Assembly (NCBI RefSeq): GCF_000744815.1
Contig: NZ_JQMQ01000005.1
Location: forward strand, 4,038,055-4,102,054
Length of the DNA stretch: 64,000 nucleotides
Direction of reading: 5' to 3'
Origin: Phaeacidiphilus oryzae TH49
GTDB taxonomy: Bacteria; Actinomycetota; Actinomycetes; Streptomycetales; Streptomycetaceae
Both the position numbers and the translations under genes were made by a program. The notes under the pieces were generated by a model. The model was not told where the DNA came from, searched no databases, and saw only the letters and a program-made list of their open reading frames with translations. This document shows positions 52,358 through 59,157 of this stretch, piece by piece; position 1 is the stretch's first letter; the number at the start of each line of letters is the position of its first letter.

Positions 52358-52567
52358 TCAGCCCTCGAAGGCGCCCGAGCCGGCGGCGGTCACGAACGCG
52401 TTCCAGGCCTCGGCGGAGAAGCGGAGGGCCGGGCCGTCGGGGTCCTTCGAGTCCCGCACGGCGATCGAGGCGGAGTCCGGTACGGCGACCTCGACGCAGT
52501 TGCCGTTGGCACCGCTGTGGCTGGACTTGCGCCACTCCAGCCGAGTGGGGACGGTCTGGTCGTTCAT
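52358..52567 (-). CDS. DUF397 protein
   Basis: 69 residues. WRKSSHSGANGNCVEVAV and VRDSKDPDGPALRFSAEAW are the complete DUF397 signature. The family is found almost only in actinobacteria, nearly always beside an XRE regulator; some pairs act as toxin-antitoxin-like or developmental switches. ATG 52567 overlaps the regulator's stop (ATGA). Confidence 0.95.
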   Translation of the reverse strand: MNDQTVPTRLEWRKSSHSGANGNCVEVAVPDSASIAVRDSKDPDGPALRFSAEAWNAFVTAAGSGAFEG

Positions 52568-53421
52568 TGCGCGTGCTCCTTCGCAATCTTCCCTATCACC
52601 ACTCGGGAGTCGGCGGGACTGAGCGCCGTGGCCCGGAGGTGTTCGTAAAGCCCGGTATACCGGCGTACGTCCGACTCCTTCTCCAGGTAGAGATCGCTTG
52701 TCACTCCTTCGAGGTAAACCACCGCAGTATCTGCTGACTCGGGGAACTCGAGGATGGAGAATGCGCCCGACATGCCCGGGTGGGCACCGGCGCTGAAGCC
52801 GATCACCTGAAGATTCACATGTGGCAACTCGCAGAAGGCGGCGAGCTGTTCGAGCTGCTGGCGCATCACCTCGGGGCTGCCGACGATCCGGCGGAGCGCC
52901 GCCTCGTCGATGACCGCCCAGAACTCCACGGGGTTGTCCCCGGTGACGCGCTCCTGGCGGCGCATCCGCACCTCGGCCCGCCGCTCGACGGCCTCCGCGT
53001 CCCGGTCCGGCTGGATGCCGGCGATGGCGGCGCGGGCGTAGTCCCGGGTCTGCAGCAGCCCCGGGATGAGCAGCGACTCATAGGTCCGGATCGAGGCGGC
53101 CTCGTCCTCGAGTCCGATGTAGACGCTGTACGGGAGGTCGCCGAAGGCGTGCCACCAGCCGCGCTGCCGCGACTCGCGGGCCATCGCCATCAGGCCCTCG
53201 ATCATCGTCTCGTCGGTCACCCCGTAGACGCCGCAGAGATCGCGCACATCGCGCTGGCTGATCGAGCGCCGCCCGTTCTCCAGTCGGCTGATCTTGGACT
53301 GGGAGACCAGGAGTTGGGCCGCGACCTCCTCCGCCGTGAGTCCGCGGGCCTCACGCAGCCTGCGGAGCTCGGAGCCCAGTCGCCGGCGCCGAACTGTCGG
53401 GTTGATGCTGGCGGACGACAC
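52564..53421 (-). CDS. XRE-family regulator with DUF5753 domain
   Basis: 285 residues from GTG 53421, with GGAGGT 5 nt upstream; an ATG at 53472 has no RBS. The N-terminal HTH (LREARGLTAEEVAAQLLVSQ, SKISRLENGRR) is followed by the DUF5753 ligand-sensor-like domain (SLLIPGLLQTRDYARA, VIDEAALRRIVGS). It is translationally coupled to the DUF397 gene. S. coelicolor has many such pairs; most have no known ligand. Confidence 0.93.
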   Translation of the reverse strand: MSSASINPTVRRRRLGSELRRLREARGLTAEEVAAQLLVSQSKISRLENGRRSISQRDVRDLCGVYGVTDETMIEGLMAMARESRQRGWWHAFGDLPYSVYIGLEDEAASIRTYESLLIPGLLQTRDYARAAIAGIQPDRDAEAVERRAEVRMRRQERVTGDNPVEFWAVIDEAALRRIVGSPEVMRQQLEQLAAFCELPHVNLQVIGFSAGAHPGMSGAFSILEFPESADTAVVYLEGVTSDLYLEKESDVRRYTGLYEHLRATALSPADSRVVIGKIAKEHAQ

Positions 53422-53834
53422 ATCGACCTCCGACCGCCGAAATTGGTTGGTATTTCTTCCGCTAGGCAGCATGCCATCGGGCGGAGGGCGTGTGGGAGGG
53501 ATTTACCCAGCTCATCGCCGAGAAGAGCGGTAATGCGCACGGGACCTGCCGATCTTCGGTGCCAATTCGTCCCGATAGGCGCACCTGTGCCCAGGTTTGA
53601 CGTTTACTCAGCGGGCGTGAGCCCTGGGCGCGCGTAACGATCTCACGCGCCCCCGGGGCGAACCGCCTCCGGGCATGGCTCAGCGCCGTGCGGCGACTGC
53701 GACGCCGCACGGCGCTCGACCACTCGGCCGGCCGACCGGGCCGTCGGCCACCGGCCATCGACCGGCGGCCGCCGACGGGCGACGGCCGGGGCCGATGACC
53801 GGCGGCCGGCGGGTACCGGCCGCCGTCCCGCGCG
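53422..53834. other. Upstream region of the XRE gene and low-complexity GC tract
   Basis: 413 bp without a gene. The part near the XRE start is AT-richer and should contain its promoter. From ~53690 to 53890 the sequence is almost wholly GGCC/CCGG/GCCG words, running into the 3' end of the GPP34 gene. GCGCGTAACGATCTCACGCGC at 53628 is an imperfect inverted repeat. Confidence 0.5.
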
Positions 53835-53890
53835 CTACCGGACGGCCGCCCGGGCCATCCCGCGCGCGGCCGGGACCGCGGCGGGCCGCC
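53690..53890. repeat. Low-complexity GGCC/CCGG-rich tract
   Basis: Repeated CCGGCGGCCG, GGCCGTCGGCC and GACCGGCGGCC words give many overlapping inverted repeats. The tract covers the terminal Ala/Arg-rich codons of the GPP34 gene. Confidence 0.6.
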
Positions 53891-54560
53891 GGCCCGTGCT
53901 CGCCGACCGCGCGGCCGTACCGCGCGACTGCGTGGCCGGGATGCCGTTCTGCACGTCCATGACGGCGTGGGCGACCATTCCGCCCATCGGGTCGTACCGG
54001 ATCAGGTCACGCAGGCGTGACCGACACGACCGTCCCTCGTTACCCGGGTACAAGTGCTTACCCAGCCCGACCGCGTGCGCCAGCGAAGCCAGCGCGGCCG
54101 TGCGGGGGTCCGGGGGTACCCCGGTCCTGATCGCGGCGTCCAGGCGCTCCTTGATCGCCTGGTTCGTGGACTCCTCCGACGCCTGGTACCGGGTCGTCGG
54201 GAGCACTCCGCACACCTGTCCGGGAACCGCGCGCACCATTCCGCACCTCTCAAGGTGTGCAAGGTACGTCTGGCGAAGCCCCAAGCGGGGCCCGCCGATC
54301 CAGGACACCGCGCGTACCGGGCTGCCGCGCCTGCGCAGCAGTTCGAGCGCGTGGTCCAGGGTCGGGTCTCCGGTCGGTCGCGGCATGACCACGGCGATTC
54401 GGTCACCGTTCGGAACTATCCGTCCGGCCAGGGCCAGCTCTACGAGCTGGGCCCCGGCGAGTCCGAGGTCGAGGGTCTGCGGCTGCGCCGTGGTGCCCGT
54501 GGCCGGGTCCAGTGCGAGCAACAACAGTTCCTCGGGAATTGTTCTGCGGCTCCTGCCCAT
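53835..54560 (-). CDS. GPP34 (GOLPH3-like) family protein
   Basis: 241 residues from ATG 54560, with GGGAGG 5 nt upstream. The opening TIPEELLLLALDPATG and LDLGLAGAQLVELALAGRI are the GPP34 signature. The eukaryotic relative GOLPH3 binds phosphatidylinositol-4-phosphate on Golgi membranes; the bacterial function is unknown, with a membrane-lipid role possible. The last ~35 residues are low-complexity Ala/Arg. The frame is open upstream to 54857, but without family sequence. Confidence 0.85.
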   Translation of the reverse strand: MGRSRRTIPEELLLLALDPATGTTAQPQTLDLGLAGAQLVELALAGRIVPNGDRIAVVMPRPTGDPTLDHALELLRRRGSPVRAVSWIGGPRLGLRQTYLAHLERCGMVRAVPGQVCGVLPTTRYQASEESTNQAIKERLDAAIRTGVPPDPRTAALASLAHAVGLGKHLYPGNEGRSCRSRLRDLIRYDPMGGMVAHAVMDVQNGIPATQSRGTAARSASTGRRPAAVPAARGMARAAVR

Positions 54561-54989
54561 CCAAGCCTCCCCGCGTGGATGGCAAACAGAGTGACGCCTC
54601 TCACACCCTGCTGTCGAGAGTGCCTTGGGATGGATGGCTGTTTGTGATCTCGGGAACCACCCCGCGAGCTCGAACGTCTGGCTCAGCAGCGGGCGCTGGA
54701 AGCTAGGACTCGCGAGGGCTCCGCAAGGCTTCCGCGGACGAATCGGGGTGCGATCGCGCGCAAAGCGTGAAGCCCTGTCGTTCCTTGCGCCGCTTCGGGG
54801 AGATTTCCGCCGGATCGGGGGATTCATAGGATTTCGGGGGAAACTGCGGGGTAACAACGGGGTTTACCCCGGTTCGTCGTTCAGCTGGAACGTACGGACC
54901 GGGGCTTCGGCGGTGTTGGTAGCGGAATGCGCGCCTCCGGTAGACGATCATGGATGCGTTCCGGTCATGCGCGCGAGGAGGTTGGGTAC
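54561..54989. other. Divergent intergenic region, GPP34 / carboxypeptidase
   Basis: 429 bp. TAGGAT (54827-54832) is a possible rightward -10 with a weak -35 (TTTCCG, 17-bp spacer). Runs of GGGG recur every ~15-20 bp from 54796 to 54870, ending in CGGGG-TTTA-CCCCG. I see no gene. Confidence 0.45.
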
Positions 54990-57694
54990 GTGGGCGGCGA
55001 GTCCCGGAGCAAGGTCCGGACGACCGACGGGGACGCAGAGGAGGTCACGGTCGCGGCGGAGAGCGCGGAGAGCGGCGCGGAACGCGCGCCCGATCCGACC
55101 CTCCACCTGCGCGCGCAGCCCGCGGCCGGGCCGCGGGACGCCGAGGCGGAACCCGACCCGAAGCCCGCGCCGAAGCCGGGCCACCAGCGCGAGGCGGCGG
55201 CCCCGGACGAGCCGGACGGCCCGCCCGCCGCCGAGCACCCCTCTGACGCGCCCTCCCCGGCCGCTCCCCAGGCGGACCGCCCGACGACGGCGTTCCGCCC
55301 GCCGAAGCCCGTTCCCGACGCGAAGGCCCCGACGGGGCCCGATGCGAAGGCCCTCACGGGGCCCGACACCCCCGCCGAGGCGCCGACGGACCGGCCGACC
55401 GCGGTGTTCCGCGCGCCCAAGGACCAGTCGGCCGCGAAGACACCGGCCACGTCGGCCACGCAGGCTCCAGCCGAGGACGAGGCCGAGCCGGATGTGCCCG
55501 GCGGCAGCCAGGCGGACAAACCGACCAGGGCACTCCGCGCCCCCGACGCTGAGTCGCAGGCCGACGCCGCGACCGGGCCGAAGGGGGATCGGCCGACGGC
55601 GGTGTTCCGCGCGCCCAAGGACGGCTCTGCCGCGCAGGCCGAGACCGAGGCCGGCGACAAGCCGGACGCGCCTGCCGAGGCGAAGCCGGATCGGCCGACC
55701 GCGGTGTTTCGGGCACCCAAGGGCGGGTCGGACGCGAAGGCCCCGGCGCCTGCCGAAGCCGAAGCCCCCGACGACGCGAAGGCCCCGGCGGCTACCGAAG
55801 CCGAGGCCCCGGCCGCGCCGAAGGAGCGGGACCGGCCGACTACGGCGTCCCGCGCCAAGGGGGAGTCCGGCGCGAAGGGGTCGGCCGACGCCGAAACGGG
55901 ATCGAAGGCCACCCCGGCCGAGCCGAAGGGCGCCCGCCCGACCACGCCGCCGCCCGGCGGCAAGGACGAGTCGGACACCCCGGCCGAGCCGAAGGCGGAC
56001 CGGCCGACGACCGTGCTGCCCGGCGGCAAGGCCAAGAGCCAGGACGACGCAGACGCTGACACCGCGTCGAAGGCGGACCCGCCGACGACTGTGCTGCCCA
56101 GCGGCAAGGGGAAAACGGAGCCCCCGTCCCCGTCGAAGGCGGACCCGCCGACGACCGTGCTGCCCAGCGGCAAGGGCAAGACCGAAGCCGACGCAGACGC
56201 CTCCGGGAGCGCAGCCGCCAAGCCGGCCGCCAGCGCCAAGCCCGCCGCAGGCGCCAGCGCCAGCGCCGCCGCCCCGCCGGCGGCATCCCGCCGCGGCCCG
56301 CCGCGCCGCCCGCCGCCGCGGCGAAGCTGCCGACGCCGCAGCCGTCGCCCCCCGCGCCGCCCGCGCCCCCGAAGCCGCCCGCGCCGCCGTTCACGTCGCC
56401 GGAGAGCACCTCCGAGGCCATGCAGGTGCTCGCCTCGCTCTCCGGACGTCCGATGACGCCCCTGCGCCAGCTGGCCAGACGGCTCAAGATCTGGGGCTCC
56501 CTGGTCGTCCTGCTGCTGGTCGTCTTCACGGTCGTGCAGTTCGTCCGCCCGCTCCCGGATCCGGCGCTGAAGCTGACCGCCGCCTCCAGCTACGCCTTCG
56601 GCGGCACCGCGCCGGCCATGCCGTGGCCGTCCGCCGGCCAGGCCGCCGTCGAGGTCGAGGGCCTCGGCAGCCTGGGCCGCAGCGGCCCGAAGGGCACCGA
56701 GGTGCCGATCGCCAGCGTCACCAAGGTGATGACCGCGTACCTGATCCTCCGCGACCACCCGCTCAAGCCCGGCGAGAAGGGCCCGACCCTGTCCGTGGAC
56801 GCCCAGGCCGCCAGCGACTACTCGACCGGCAGCGCCGAGGGCGAGTCGGTGGTCAAGGTGACGAACCGTCAGAAGATCAGCGAGTACCAGGCGCTGCAGA
56901 TGCTGCTGATCCCGTCGGCGAACAACATCGCCCGCCTCCTCGGCCGCTGGGACGCCGGCTCGGACCCGGCCTTCGTGCAGAAGATGCAGGCCACGGCCAA
57001 GCAGCTCGGCATGGACGACACCACCTACACCGACCCGTCCGGCCTCACCCCGACCACCAAGAGCACCGCCGACGACCAGCTGAAGCTGGCCCGCATGGTC
57101 TGGCAGAACGCGGTCTTCCGGGAGATCGTCGGCACCGGCTCGTTCACCCCGCCCGGCGACGGCGTGATGTACAACAACAACGCGGTGCTCTACCAGGACG
57201 GCATCGTCGGTATGAAGACCGGCTCGTCCTCGGCCGCGCTCGGCTGCCTGATGTTCGCCGCCGAGTACAAGATCGGCGGCCAGACCCGGACCGTCCTCGG
57301 CGTGACCCTCGGCCAGCCGGCGACCTCCTCGGCCTCGATCCTCACCAACGCGCTCAACGCCTCCAAGGACCTGGTGGTGGCGACCGAGAAGTCGCTGGAG
57401 TCGCACGACCTGGTGAAGAAGGGCGAGGTCGTCGGCTACGTGGACGACGGCATGGGCGGCCACACGCCGCTCGTCGCCACCAAGGACTCGACGGTCACCG
57501 GCTGGGGCGGCCTCTCCGTCCAGCTCGGCATGACGCCGAGCGCCGCCGACGGCAAGGTCCCGCACACGGCGAAGGCCGGCGACCAGGTCGGCTACCTGAC
57601 GATCGGTTCCGGCACCGGCGAGACGAAGATCCCGGTGGCCCTCCAGTCCGACCTCAAGCAGCCCTCCCTGGGCGCCCGCTGGGCCCACATCTGA
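54990..57694 (+). pseudogene. D-Ala-D-Ala carboxypeptidase (peptidase S11) with long repeat tail, apparent frameshift
   Basis: GTG 54990 (GAGGAGG 8 nt upstream) starts a ~425-residue hydrophilic region with ten copies of a DRPTTV(L/F)-type motif. Near 56262-56300 the sensible reading shifts from this frame to the one that starts one base earlier. The shifted frame gives Pro-rich linker, LARRLKIWG, one membrane helix and the S11 domain. Catalytic motifs are intact: SVTK (Ser-x2-Lys), SAN and KTG. The enzyme trims peptidoglycan stem peptides outside the membrane, so the tail is cytoplasmic. One base appears lost in a GC-rich tract; this may be a sequencing error, a real mutation or a programmed shift. 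ATG 56420 could restart a membrane-anchored short form. Confidence 0.8.
55270..56175 (+). repeat. Ten degenerate DRPTT repeats in the carboxypeptidase tail
   Basis: The 13-residue cores recur about every 25-40 residues: [23 protein letters not shown] (three), [43 protein letters not shown] and [11 protein letters not shown] (two). The spacers are Ala/Glu/Asp/Pro-rich. Confidence 0.85.
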
Positions 57695-58607: not shown

Positions 58608-58622
58608 TAGGATGCTAGCATC
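58608..58622 (+). promoter_or_regulatory. Promoter/operator of the RHH-VOC operon
   Basis: TAGGAT (58608-58613) is a good -10. It overlaps the perfect 12-bp palindrome GATGCTAGCATC (58611-58622), and GCTAGC recurs at 58598-58603. A ribbon-helix-helix protein encoded 7 nt downstream could bind this site. CTGACA (58582-58587) is a possible -35, with a long 20-bp spacer. Confidence 0.55.
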
Positions 58623-58628
58623 GGCTTC

Positions 58629-58802
58629 GTGGCCGACGAGAAACCCACAGCGTCCAAGGCGAAGGACGAGGTCAAGCAGTTCAACGTCTATCTGCCGGTC
58701 GACCTGATCAAGCAGGTCAAACACCACGCCGTCGAGGAGGGCAGGTCGCTCTCCTCGATCGTCGCCGACGCGCTGCGCAGCTACCTCGCAGAGGAGTCCT
58801 GA
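58629..58802 (+). CDS. Small ribbon-helix-helix (CopG/Arc-type) protein
   Basis: 57 residues from GTG 58629. After a Lys-rich arm the sequence [20 protein letters not shown] and then [18 protein letters not shown] is a complete ribbon-helix-helix: one beta strand and two helices. Such proteins are dimeric repressors or antitoxins. The stop is one base before the VOC ATG, so the two are one operon. The RHH probably represses its own promoter through the overlapping palindrome (inference). Confidence 0.88.
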
Positions 58803-58803
58803 G

Positions 58804-59157
58804 ATGAGCAAGCCCACCGACGGAATCGAGGCGGTCTTCTTCGAGACCCACAACTGGGGCCGCGCGGCCCGCTTCTTCCAGTCCCTCGGCTACGAGCTGG
58901 AGTTCGACACCGGACACAACTCGGGCCAGCTGCGCAACGGCGAGTCCGGGCCGTACGTCTTCGTCGCCGAGATCCCCGAGGACCGCGAGCCCGGCGTCCG
59001 CCTGGTGCTCACCACCGAGGACGAGGCGAGCTTCCGGCCCGGCCCGGACGTCGAACTGGTCACCCCCTTCGAGGACACTCACTACGGCACCCGCGAAGCC
59101 GTCGTCCGCGACCCCGACGGCCGCCTGTGGACGGTCCAGGCCCGCAAACCGGCCTGA
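58804..59157 (+). CDS. VOC-superfamily (glyoxalase/bleomycin-resistance fold) protein
   Basis: 117 residues. IEAVFFETHNWGRAARFFQS and then LGYELEF open the fold, and AVVRDPDGRLWTVQARKP closes it; both are typical of VOC proteins. A metal set is plausible (His in FFETHNW, Glu near the end), but no enzyme type can be assigned. It could be a dioxygenase-like, lyase or drug-binding protein. Tight coupling to the RHH gene suggests it is the regulated output, or a sensor or toxin partner. Confidence 0.85.
   Translation: MSKPTDGIEAVFFETHNWGRAARFFQSLGYELEFDTGHNSGQLRNGESGPYVFVAEIPEDREPGVRLVLTTEDEASFRPGPDVELVTPFEDTHYGTREAVVRDPDGRLWTVQARKPA

Follow-up and report, generated by a model that had tools for sequence, protein, structure and literature searches.

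A repeated threonine motif in the N-terminal tail of an SCO4439-type D,D-carboxypeptidase

Gene locus and reading frames

The 64,000-nucleotide stretch of Phaeacidiphilus oryzae TH49 DNA analysed here (the window; contig NZ_JQMQ01000005.1, positions 4,038,055 to 4,102,054) is part of a 7.8 Mb genome, the sole member of its genus among the 61 genomes compared. Between nucleotides 54990 and 57694 it codes for a long N-terminal tail carrying a repeated threonine motif, a membrane helix and an S11 D,D-carboxypeptidase (Table 1). We identify the gene as the Streptomyces coelicolor SCO4439 orthologue from its synteny with SCO4440, its domain order and the sigmaE-type promoter that relatives have. 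The closest named relatives of the enzyme belong to Streptacidiphilus, Streptomyces and Actinacidiphila.

SCO4439 is a D,D-carboxypeptidase with demonstrated carboxypeptidase activity and a role in spore wall maturation. Its N-terminal part, which is of low conservation, was labelled a "putative transcriptional regulator domain" (CDD PHA03307) and was assigned by the authors to the cytosolic side (PMC4751497, in part; "in part" marks papers of which part of the text was used). The gene is a sigmaE target under partial control of this factor (PMC6767563, in part). The strict sigmaE-type pattern GGAAC[CT]-N15-17-CGTC[TG] precedes the tail in 37 of 43 relatives, compared with 0.07 expected from shuffled sequences. 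The window resembles the SCO4439 locus in its tail-helix-S11 order and in the divergent GPP34 (GOLPH3-like) gene next to it, and differs in that tail and enzyme occupy separate frames.

An earlier note on this DNA had read 54990-57694 as one protein with a tail of about 425 residues in front of the helix and the S11 domain. A tail of about that length (~429 residues from the GTG) was indeed found, but it is not in frame with the enzyme. The interval comprises 2705 nucleotides, a number not divisible by 3, and third-position GC content indicated coding without a gap and with a change of frame between ~56160 and ~56310. The tail frame contains no stop up to the break, is Arg/Pro-rich past ~56280 and ends as an open reading frame (ORF) at 56456. 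The first ATG, GTG or TTG of the S11 frame lies at 56420; a GAGG precedes it by just 2 nucleotides, an unusual spacing.

Table 1. Features of the carboxypeptidase locus (positions in the window)
Feature	Position	Strand	Remarks
N-terminal tail	54990..56280	+	GTG start, ~429 residues, tail frame; end approximate owing to frame switch
Motif 1 DRPTTAFR	55275..55298	+	
Motif 2 DRPTAVFR	55389..55412	+	
Motif 3 DKPTRALR	55515..55538	+	
Motif 4 DRPTAVFR	55587..55610	+	
Motif 5 DRPTAVFR	55689..55712	+	
Motif 6 DRPTTASR	55830..55853	+	Degenerate, Ser at +3
Motif 7 ARPTTPPP	55932..55955	+	Degenerate
Motif 8 DRPTTVLP	55998..56021	+	Pro at +4
Motif 9 DPPTTVLP	56076..56099	+	Pro at +4
Motif 10 DPPTTVLP	56142..56165	+	Pro at +4
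Frame switch, tail frame to S11 frame	56250..56310 (approximate)	+	
Helix and S11 D,D-carboxypeptidase	56420..57694	+	First ATG of S11 frame at 56420
Juxtamembrane segment, conserved	56399..56488	+	30 residues, basic beside membrane
Single transmembrane helix	56489..56545	+	19 residues
SVTK	56714-56725	+	
SAN	56915-56923	+	
KTG	57215-57223	+	
PBP5_C match	~57398-57613	+	Just below cut-off
Ribosome-binding site GAGGAGG	54975..54981	+	8 nucleotides 5' of GTG 54990
Degenerate sigmaE-like promoter GGTAAC...CGTC	54850..54878	+	Found by looser pattern only
GPP34 (GOLPH3-like), SCO4440 orthologue	53835..54560	-	Divergent; Pfam PF05719, 8.3e-53, 179.9 bits vs 29.1
XRE/DUF5753 regulator	52564..53472	-	Beside GPP34 gene; also upstream in 41/42 tailed loci

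In relatives, tail, helix and S11 domain normally form one long ORF: a frame of at least 680 residues was open in 128 of the 136 genomes that have the gene beside the GPP34 gene. Breaks were sought only among the eight shorter frames, so that breaks elsewhere may have been missed. Four of these frames are broken inside the tail (the window, G024 (L011), G168 and G145) and four are short yet open (G020 (L013), G026, G064 and G146); two named assemblies, L058 and L076, also contain frame breaks. Since 128 of the 136 frames are open and four, the window included, are broken inside the tail, the frame separation in the window most likely comes from a recent indel or an error in the sequence. For the breaks as a group, which sit in GC-rich low-complexity DNA, sequence errors are the simplest explanation; real indels are also possible, G024 and G145 being single-contig assemblies. 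Breaks in the same tail were noted in L011, L058, L076, L169 and L170, of which L011 and L169 come from single-contig genomes, and mark a tract that either attracts sequence errors or is truly prone to indels.

We consider it doubtful that the break in the window is genuine and that the tail ORF stands for a separate or decaying product. If it is, a short-tailed enzyme with a cytoplasmic part of ~23 residues could start at ATG 56420, the first start of its frame. The assembly does show the break, similar ones occur in the two single-contig genomes, the short form would be like the Micromonosporaceae homologues described below, and a form consisting of helix and carboxypeptidase works in S. coelicolor (PMC4751497, in part). 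However, coding is unbroken across the switch, no stop occurs in the tail before it, and the spacing of GAGG to the ATG is unusual; the other breaks also lie in GC-rich low-complexity tail, where sequence errors would be likely.

Membrane helix and carboxypeptidase domain

The earlier note's single membrane helix and intact S11 domain were both borne out. The Pfam S11 match had an E-value of 6.6e-25 (88.4 bits, cut-off 27.6), the SxxK, SxN and KTG motifs are present, and S99, K102, S166, K266 and G268 are invariant across 30 homologues. The S11 part was modelled by AlphaFold2 from 30 sequences with a mean pLDDT (predicted local distance difference test score) of 90.7. The best Foldseek matches of the enzyme included 3it9, 4k91 and 1nzo, the nearest solved folds being those of the penicillin-binding proteins PBP6 and PBP5. 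The S11 fold is thus common to the window enzyme and the low-molecular-mass carboxypeptidases PBP5, PBP6 and DacB, whereas the anchor of the window enzyme is an N-terminal helix with the tail in front of it. PBP5, PBP6 and DacB are not known to have a long cytoplasmic N-terminal tail.

Repeats of the window tail

The earlier note had described ten DRPTT repeats, as regularly spaced (D/A)RPTT motifs. Ten copies of the pattern (D/A)[RKP]PT[TAR] do occur between 55275 and 56165, but only three read DRPTT; the others are DRPTA (three), DPPTT (two), DKPTR and ARPTT (one each). The claim of regular spacing did not stand: successive copies are separated by 38, 42, 24, 34, 47, 34, 22, 26 and 22 residues. 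Motifs 8-10 lie within an array repeated in tandem at the DNA level with a unit of ~66 nucleotides, and tandem DNA repeats span 55990-56201. The pattern D..T..[FL][RK] was found five times in the window tail, more than by chance, as 200 shuffled versions of that tail contained 0.015 copies on average. Around the threonines of this tail alone, acidic residues were enriched at -3 (z 4.1), Pro at -1 (13 vs 6.0, z 3.1) and F/L at +3 (z 8.5), and enrichment of R/K at +4 was weak (7 vs 4.5, z 1.2).

A Pfam search of the tail detected no family at an E-value of 0.001. AlphaFold2 gave a pLDDT of 43.5, which, the run having been made without an alignment, is weak evidence that the tail may be disordered. 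The published annotation as a transcriptional regulator domain (CDD PHA03307; PMC4751497, in part) was rejected, as no Pfam DNA-binding domain was found and pLDDT was low. We regard this annotation as highly improbable; the strongly biased composition of the tail could have matched a low-complexity model.

The motif in other tails

Seventy tails were collected, of which 67 were unique; for ten of the 70, which lack a recognised start motif, the tail was taken from where the open frame begins. A set of 58 non-redundant tails was reduced to 55 by removal of L104, L011 and L076, which the 67-tail set still includes. Tail lengths range from ~200 to 630 residues, and the composition is mostly acidic. 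In the 67 unique tails the core D-x-x-T-x-x-[FL]-[RK] occurred 99 times, compared with 0.47 in shuffles, and was present in 40 of them. The 55 tails (22,725 residues) contained this strict motif 77 times, whereas 171 neighbouring ORFs (69,514 residues) contained it twice and the S11 parts (22,937 residues) once.

The surroundings of all 1444 Thr and 1818 Ser of the 55 tails were also counted without assuming a motif. F/L at +3 of Thr was strongly enriched (159 vs 40.7, z 18.8), as were R/K at +4 (247 vs 144, z 9.0) and at -1 (z 7.7); the enrichment of acidic residues at -3 was weaker (329 vs 285, z 2.9). Around Ser, F/L at +3 was depleted and R/K at +4 was not enriched. When the Thr place of the motif was left free (D..X..[FL][RK]), 77 of the 95 matches had Thr and 14 had Leu, with neither Ser nor Ala in any.

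A first dN/dS test (ratio of nonsynonymous to synonymous changes) was biased, as motif columns had been picked by conservation, and was replaced by a leave-one-out test. In the latter, dN/dS was 0.30 for motif codons, 0.62 for D-anchored octamers, 0.72 for T-anchored octamers and 0.66 for the rest of the tail, and three of the four clades showed stronger selection on the motif than on the remaining tail. We read the repeated unit of the tail as a short linear motif that is maintained in the protein sequence.

The tail may alternatively be a low-complexity spacer under little constraint, with repeats that were generated by DNA slippage and are largely without function. Low conservation, the tandem DNA repeats, the low pLDDT obtained without an alignment, the range of lengths, the frame breaks in four of 136 genomes, the tails lacking the strict motif and the dispensability of the tail in complementation (see below) are consistent with this. 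It is nevertheless rather unlikely: one 8-residue motif recurs at differing places in tails of several genera, far more often than in shuffles and neighbouring proteins, its Thr is kept against Ser, and in three of the four clades constraint on it exceeds that on control octamers.

Seven Micromonosporaceae homologues (L077, L078, L079, L082, L083, L084 and L088), which make up seven of the 15 short tails listed, have a tail of ~30 residues with one N-terminal copy of M[FL]DSATT(T)QV[LI]. Because these homologues hold one copy in so short a tail, a single site seems to be older than the long tail.

Similarity to phosphothreonine sites

The earlier note had likened the Thr-rich repeats to phosphorylation or FHA-binding sites. 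In the logo of PknA-dependent phosphothreonine sites of Mycobacterium tuberculosis (PMC7164672, in part), acidic residues stand at -1 and at -3 through -6; Pro marks -1 and +2, Leu/Val is seen at +3, and +4 is taken by Lys/Arg. The tail motif, which had been derived before this comparison, agrees with the logo at -3 (acidic), +3 (hydrophobic) and +4 (basic), and the window copies also share Pro at -1. The logo comes from another family and carries no statement on this carboxypeptidase. In Mycobacterium smegmatis, sites regulated by PstP favour phosphothreonine near acidic residues, near termini and in membrane proteins (PMC6554272, in part). In the genome of the source organism, 22 matches to kinase domains exceed the cut-off, and FHA domains give nine matches.

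The phosphothreonine motif of GarA is bound by GarA's own FHA domain. In GarA phosphorylated at Thr22 (PDB 2kfu) it reads ETTSVFR, and DRATSVFR, with an identical T-S-V-F-R core, was found twice in the 55 tails. The pattern T[AST]VF[RK] occurred 28 times in 15 tails and not once in the 171 neighbouring ORFs; DxxT[AST]VF[RK] also occurred 28 times in the tails. The motif therefore resembles the N-terminal phosphomotif of GarA/OdhI in this core, in an acidic residue before the Thr and in its position in an N-terminal extension. It differs in that the acidic residue of GarA/OdhI is at -2 rather than -3, and in that GarA/OdhI is a soluble metabolic regulator with a single copy.

These similarities make a kinase/FHA reading of the tail motif plausible. 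The enzyme would be anchored by one helix as a type II membrane protein, its S11 domain trimming pentapeptide stems outside the cell and its low-complexity, mostly acidic tail of ~200-630 residues lying inside. At each D-x-x-T-x-x-[F/L]-[R/K] copy, kinases of the PknA/PknB type would phosphorylate the Thr, and FHA domains would then bind the phosphorylated copy. The multi-copy tail could thereby serve as an adjustable, multivalent dock by which the enzyme is positioned or regulated in the machinery of envelope growth. From the sequence comparisons we rate the chance that the motif threonines serve as such sites and the tail as such a dock on SCO4439-type enzymes as somewhat short of even.

Several results weigh against this proposal. 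In the window, tail and enzyme are out of frame, and in S. coelicolor a construct of helix plus carboxypeptidase complemented the mutant without the tail (PMC4751497, in part), so that for the spore and germination phenotypes the tail can be dispensed with. The strict motif is absent from 27 of the 67 tails. Among 23 listed tails without it, 20 match a loose T..hydrophobic-[RKP] pattern and three do not; the loose matches range up to five [ED]PTMTLR copies in L025 and are often a single EGTRxMP-type element near the membrane. Many of the 14 copies with Leu for Thr are an N-terminal DPRLAVFR-like copy. As to constraint, in one clade of four sequences dN/dS of the motif was 0.59 (0.50, 0.48 and 0.55 for the controls), dS was lower in motifs too (0.157 vs 0.198-0.318), and a single clade supplied 4320 of the 4814 comparisons, the pairs not being independent.

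The similarity to known sites is also incomplete. The acidic residues that the logo has at -1, -5 and -6 and its Pro at +2 (PMC7164672, in part) are depleted in the 55 tails, and Pro at -1 is enriched in the window only, not over the 55 tails (163 vs 183), where R/K is enriched at this position instead. GarA of the source organism reads ETTSTISI, which matches only partially. When the genome was scanned with two narrow DNA patterns for the motif, one gave four matches in this gene and one at another place (third-position GC 0.55), the other two matches in this gene and one each at seven other places; no second protein with strict-motif repeats was found at these eight non-tail places. Such a result is unlike that expected for a widely used site, though both patterns are narrow. 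Juxtamembrane parts of kinases were about twofold enriched (9 vs 4.1; 20 vs 10.6), a weak enrichment obtained with 19 of the 22 kinases over the cut-off and with some matches counted twice.

The observations of the earlier note were thus partly confirmed and its interpretation partly supported, the latter by the agreement at -3, +3 and +4, the GarA-like core and the lack of Ser among the 95 matches, against the logo positions -1, -5, -6 and +2 (PMC7164672, in part). The main text of the SCO4439 paper contains no occurrence of "phosphorylat", "repeat" or "repetitive" (PMC4751497, in part), and phosphorylation of the SCO4439 tail was not found in the parts of the literature used, although the phosphoproteome site lists of S. 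coelicolor, which lay outside this search, may hold one. A doubtful label on a studied Streptomyces wall enzyme is replaced by a precise motif; if the sites are phosphorylated, the carboxypeptidase would be a direct target of the kinase/FHA system.

Some features of individual proteins were recorded in passing. The GarA homologue with ETTSTISI (L175:853-1731) has a long N-terminal extension with a stretch that by eye resembles a CxxC-type zinc ribbon. A kinase at one of the eight non-tail places, PASTA-like by eye (L124/L133, G000:C5 ~5571000-5573727), carries DEPTAML, two copies of EPTSVL and SEPTT before its helix, repeats of an EPT..L type similar to the tail motif; kinase L131 contains TEVLR and TEVMR.

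The GPP34 neighbour

In 136 of 140 genomes with listed places, the GPP34 and enzyme genes lie side by side in divergent orientation; in the other four the genes lie on separate contigs. G097, which has both genes by genome rows and no listed place for the enzyme, was left out of the 140. Among 150 genomes of the family, a GPP34 orthologue was detected in 143 (E-value 1e-50) and the tailed enzyme in 141 (E-value 1e-80). Both genes are absent from the same seven genomes, which belong to two genera. The two discordant genomes are assemblies of 800 and 1260 contigs; in one of them, G033, an enzyme match narrowly misses the threshold. All 43 tailed loci had the GPP34 gene (42 by script, L068 by hand), compared with none of 34 untailed loci with at least 2 kb upstream; L058, L076 and L097 were assigned to the tailed loci manually, and L039, L071 and L094, with less than 2 kb upstream, were left out of the untailed group. 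Synteny of SCO4439 and SCO4440 is conserved in six model Streptomyces (PMC12402492).

Eukaryotic GOLPH3 binds type II Golgi residents by their cytosolic tails (PMC12494035, in part). By analogy, the tail or the juxtamembrane segment may be a docking site by which GPP34 holds or sorts the carboxypeptidase. The likeness to GOLPH3/Vps74 and the type II Golgi enzymes lies in a GPP34 family gene adjoining the gene of a type II membrane enzyme. Besides the neighbourhood and the joint absences, the conserved juxtamembrane segment and the charges would fit such docking, GPP34 being basic (net charge +13 in the window, median +9) and the tail mostly acidic (-17 in the window, median -36; 29 pairs). These charges are, however, the reverse of the eukaryotic case (PMC12494035, in part). 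Moreover, phylogeny confounds the co-occurrence, which concerns one family with the seven absences in two genera, and divergent genes can have a common promoter region without their products binding each other. A tailed paralogue (L029, genome G004) has no GPP34 gene in the 717 nucleotides upstream, and the single GPP34 match in that genome is located on a different contig. We consider docking by GPP34 unlikely. The co-inherited bacterial GOLPH3-like gene gains a candidate partner in the enzyme. In an alignment to 3kn1, the Trp of human GOLPH3 and the Arg of its GLRG are not kept in the GPP34 neighbour. These two residues belong to the phosphatidylinositol 4-phosphate site of GOLPH3.

A still wider proposal joins kinase/FHA docking with the neighbour gene. 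A low-molecular-mass penicillin-binding protein with a multi-copy array of GarA-like phosphothreonine ligands on its disordered cytoplasmic tail would form a tether, written by kinases and read by FHA domains, that couples signalling of envelope stress and growth to pentapeptide trimming; together with its co-inherited GOLPH3-like partner it would be a bacterial counterpart of the Golgi tail-adaptor principle. This combination is distinctly unlikely.

One record named Streptosporangium nondiastaticum (L053) has a Streptomyces-type locus with GPP34 and XRE neighbours and is perhaps misnamed. Downstream of the enzyme the window carries a His_Phos gene, which lies beside the enzyme in its own genome only and in none of the relatives' loci listed. 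Beyond it, at 58620-59157, a short reading resembling a ribbon-helix-helix protein precedes a VOC-like ORF (58804-59157), both judged by eye.

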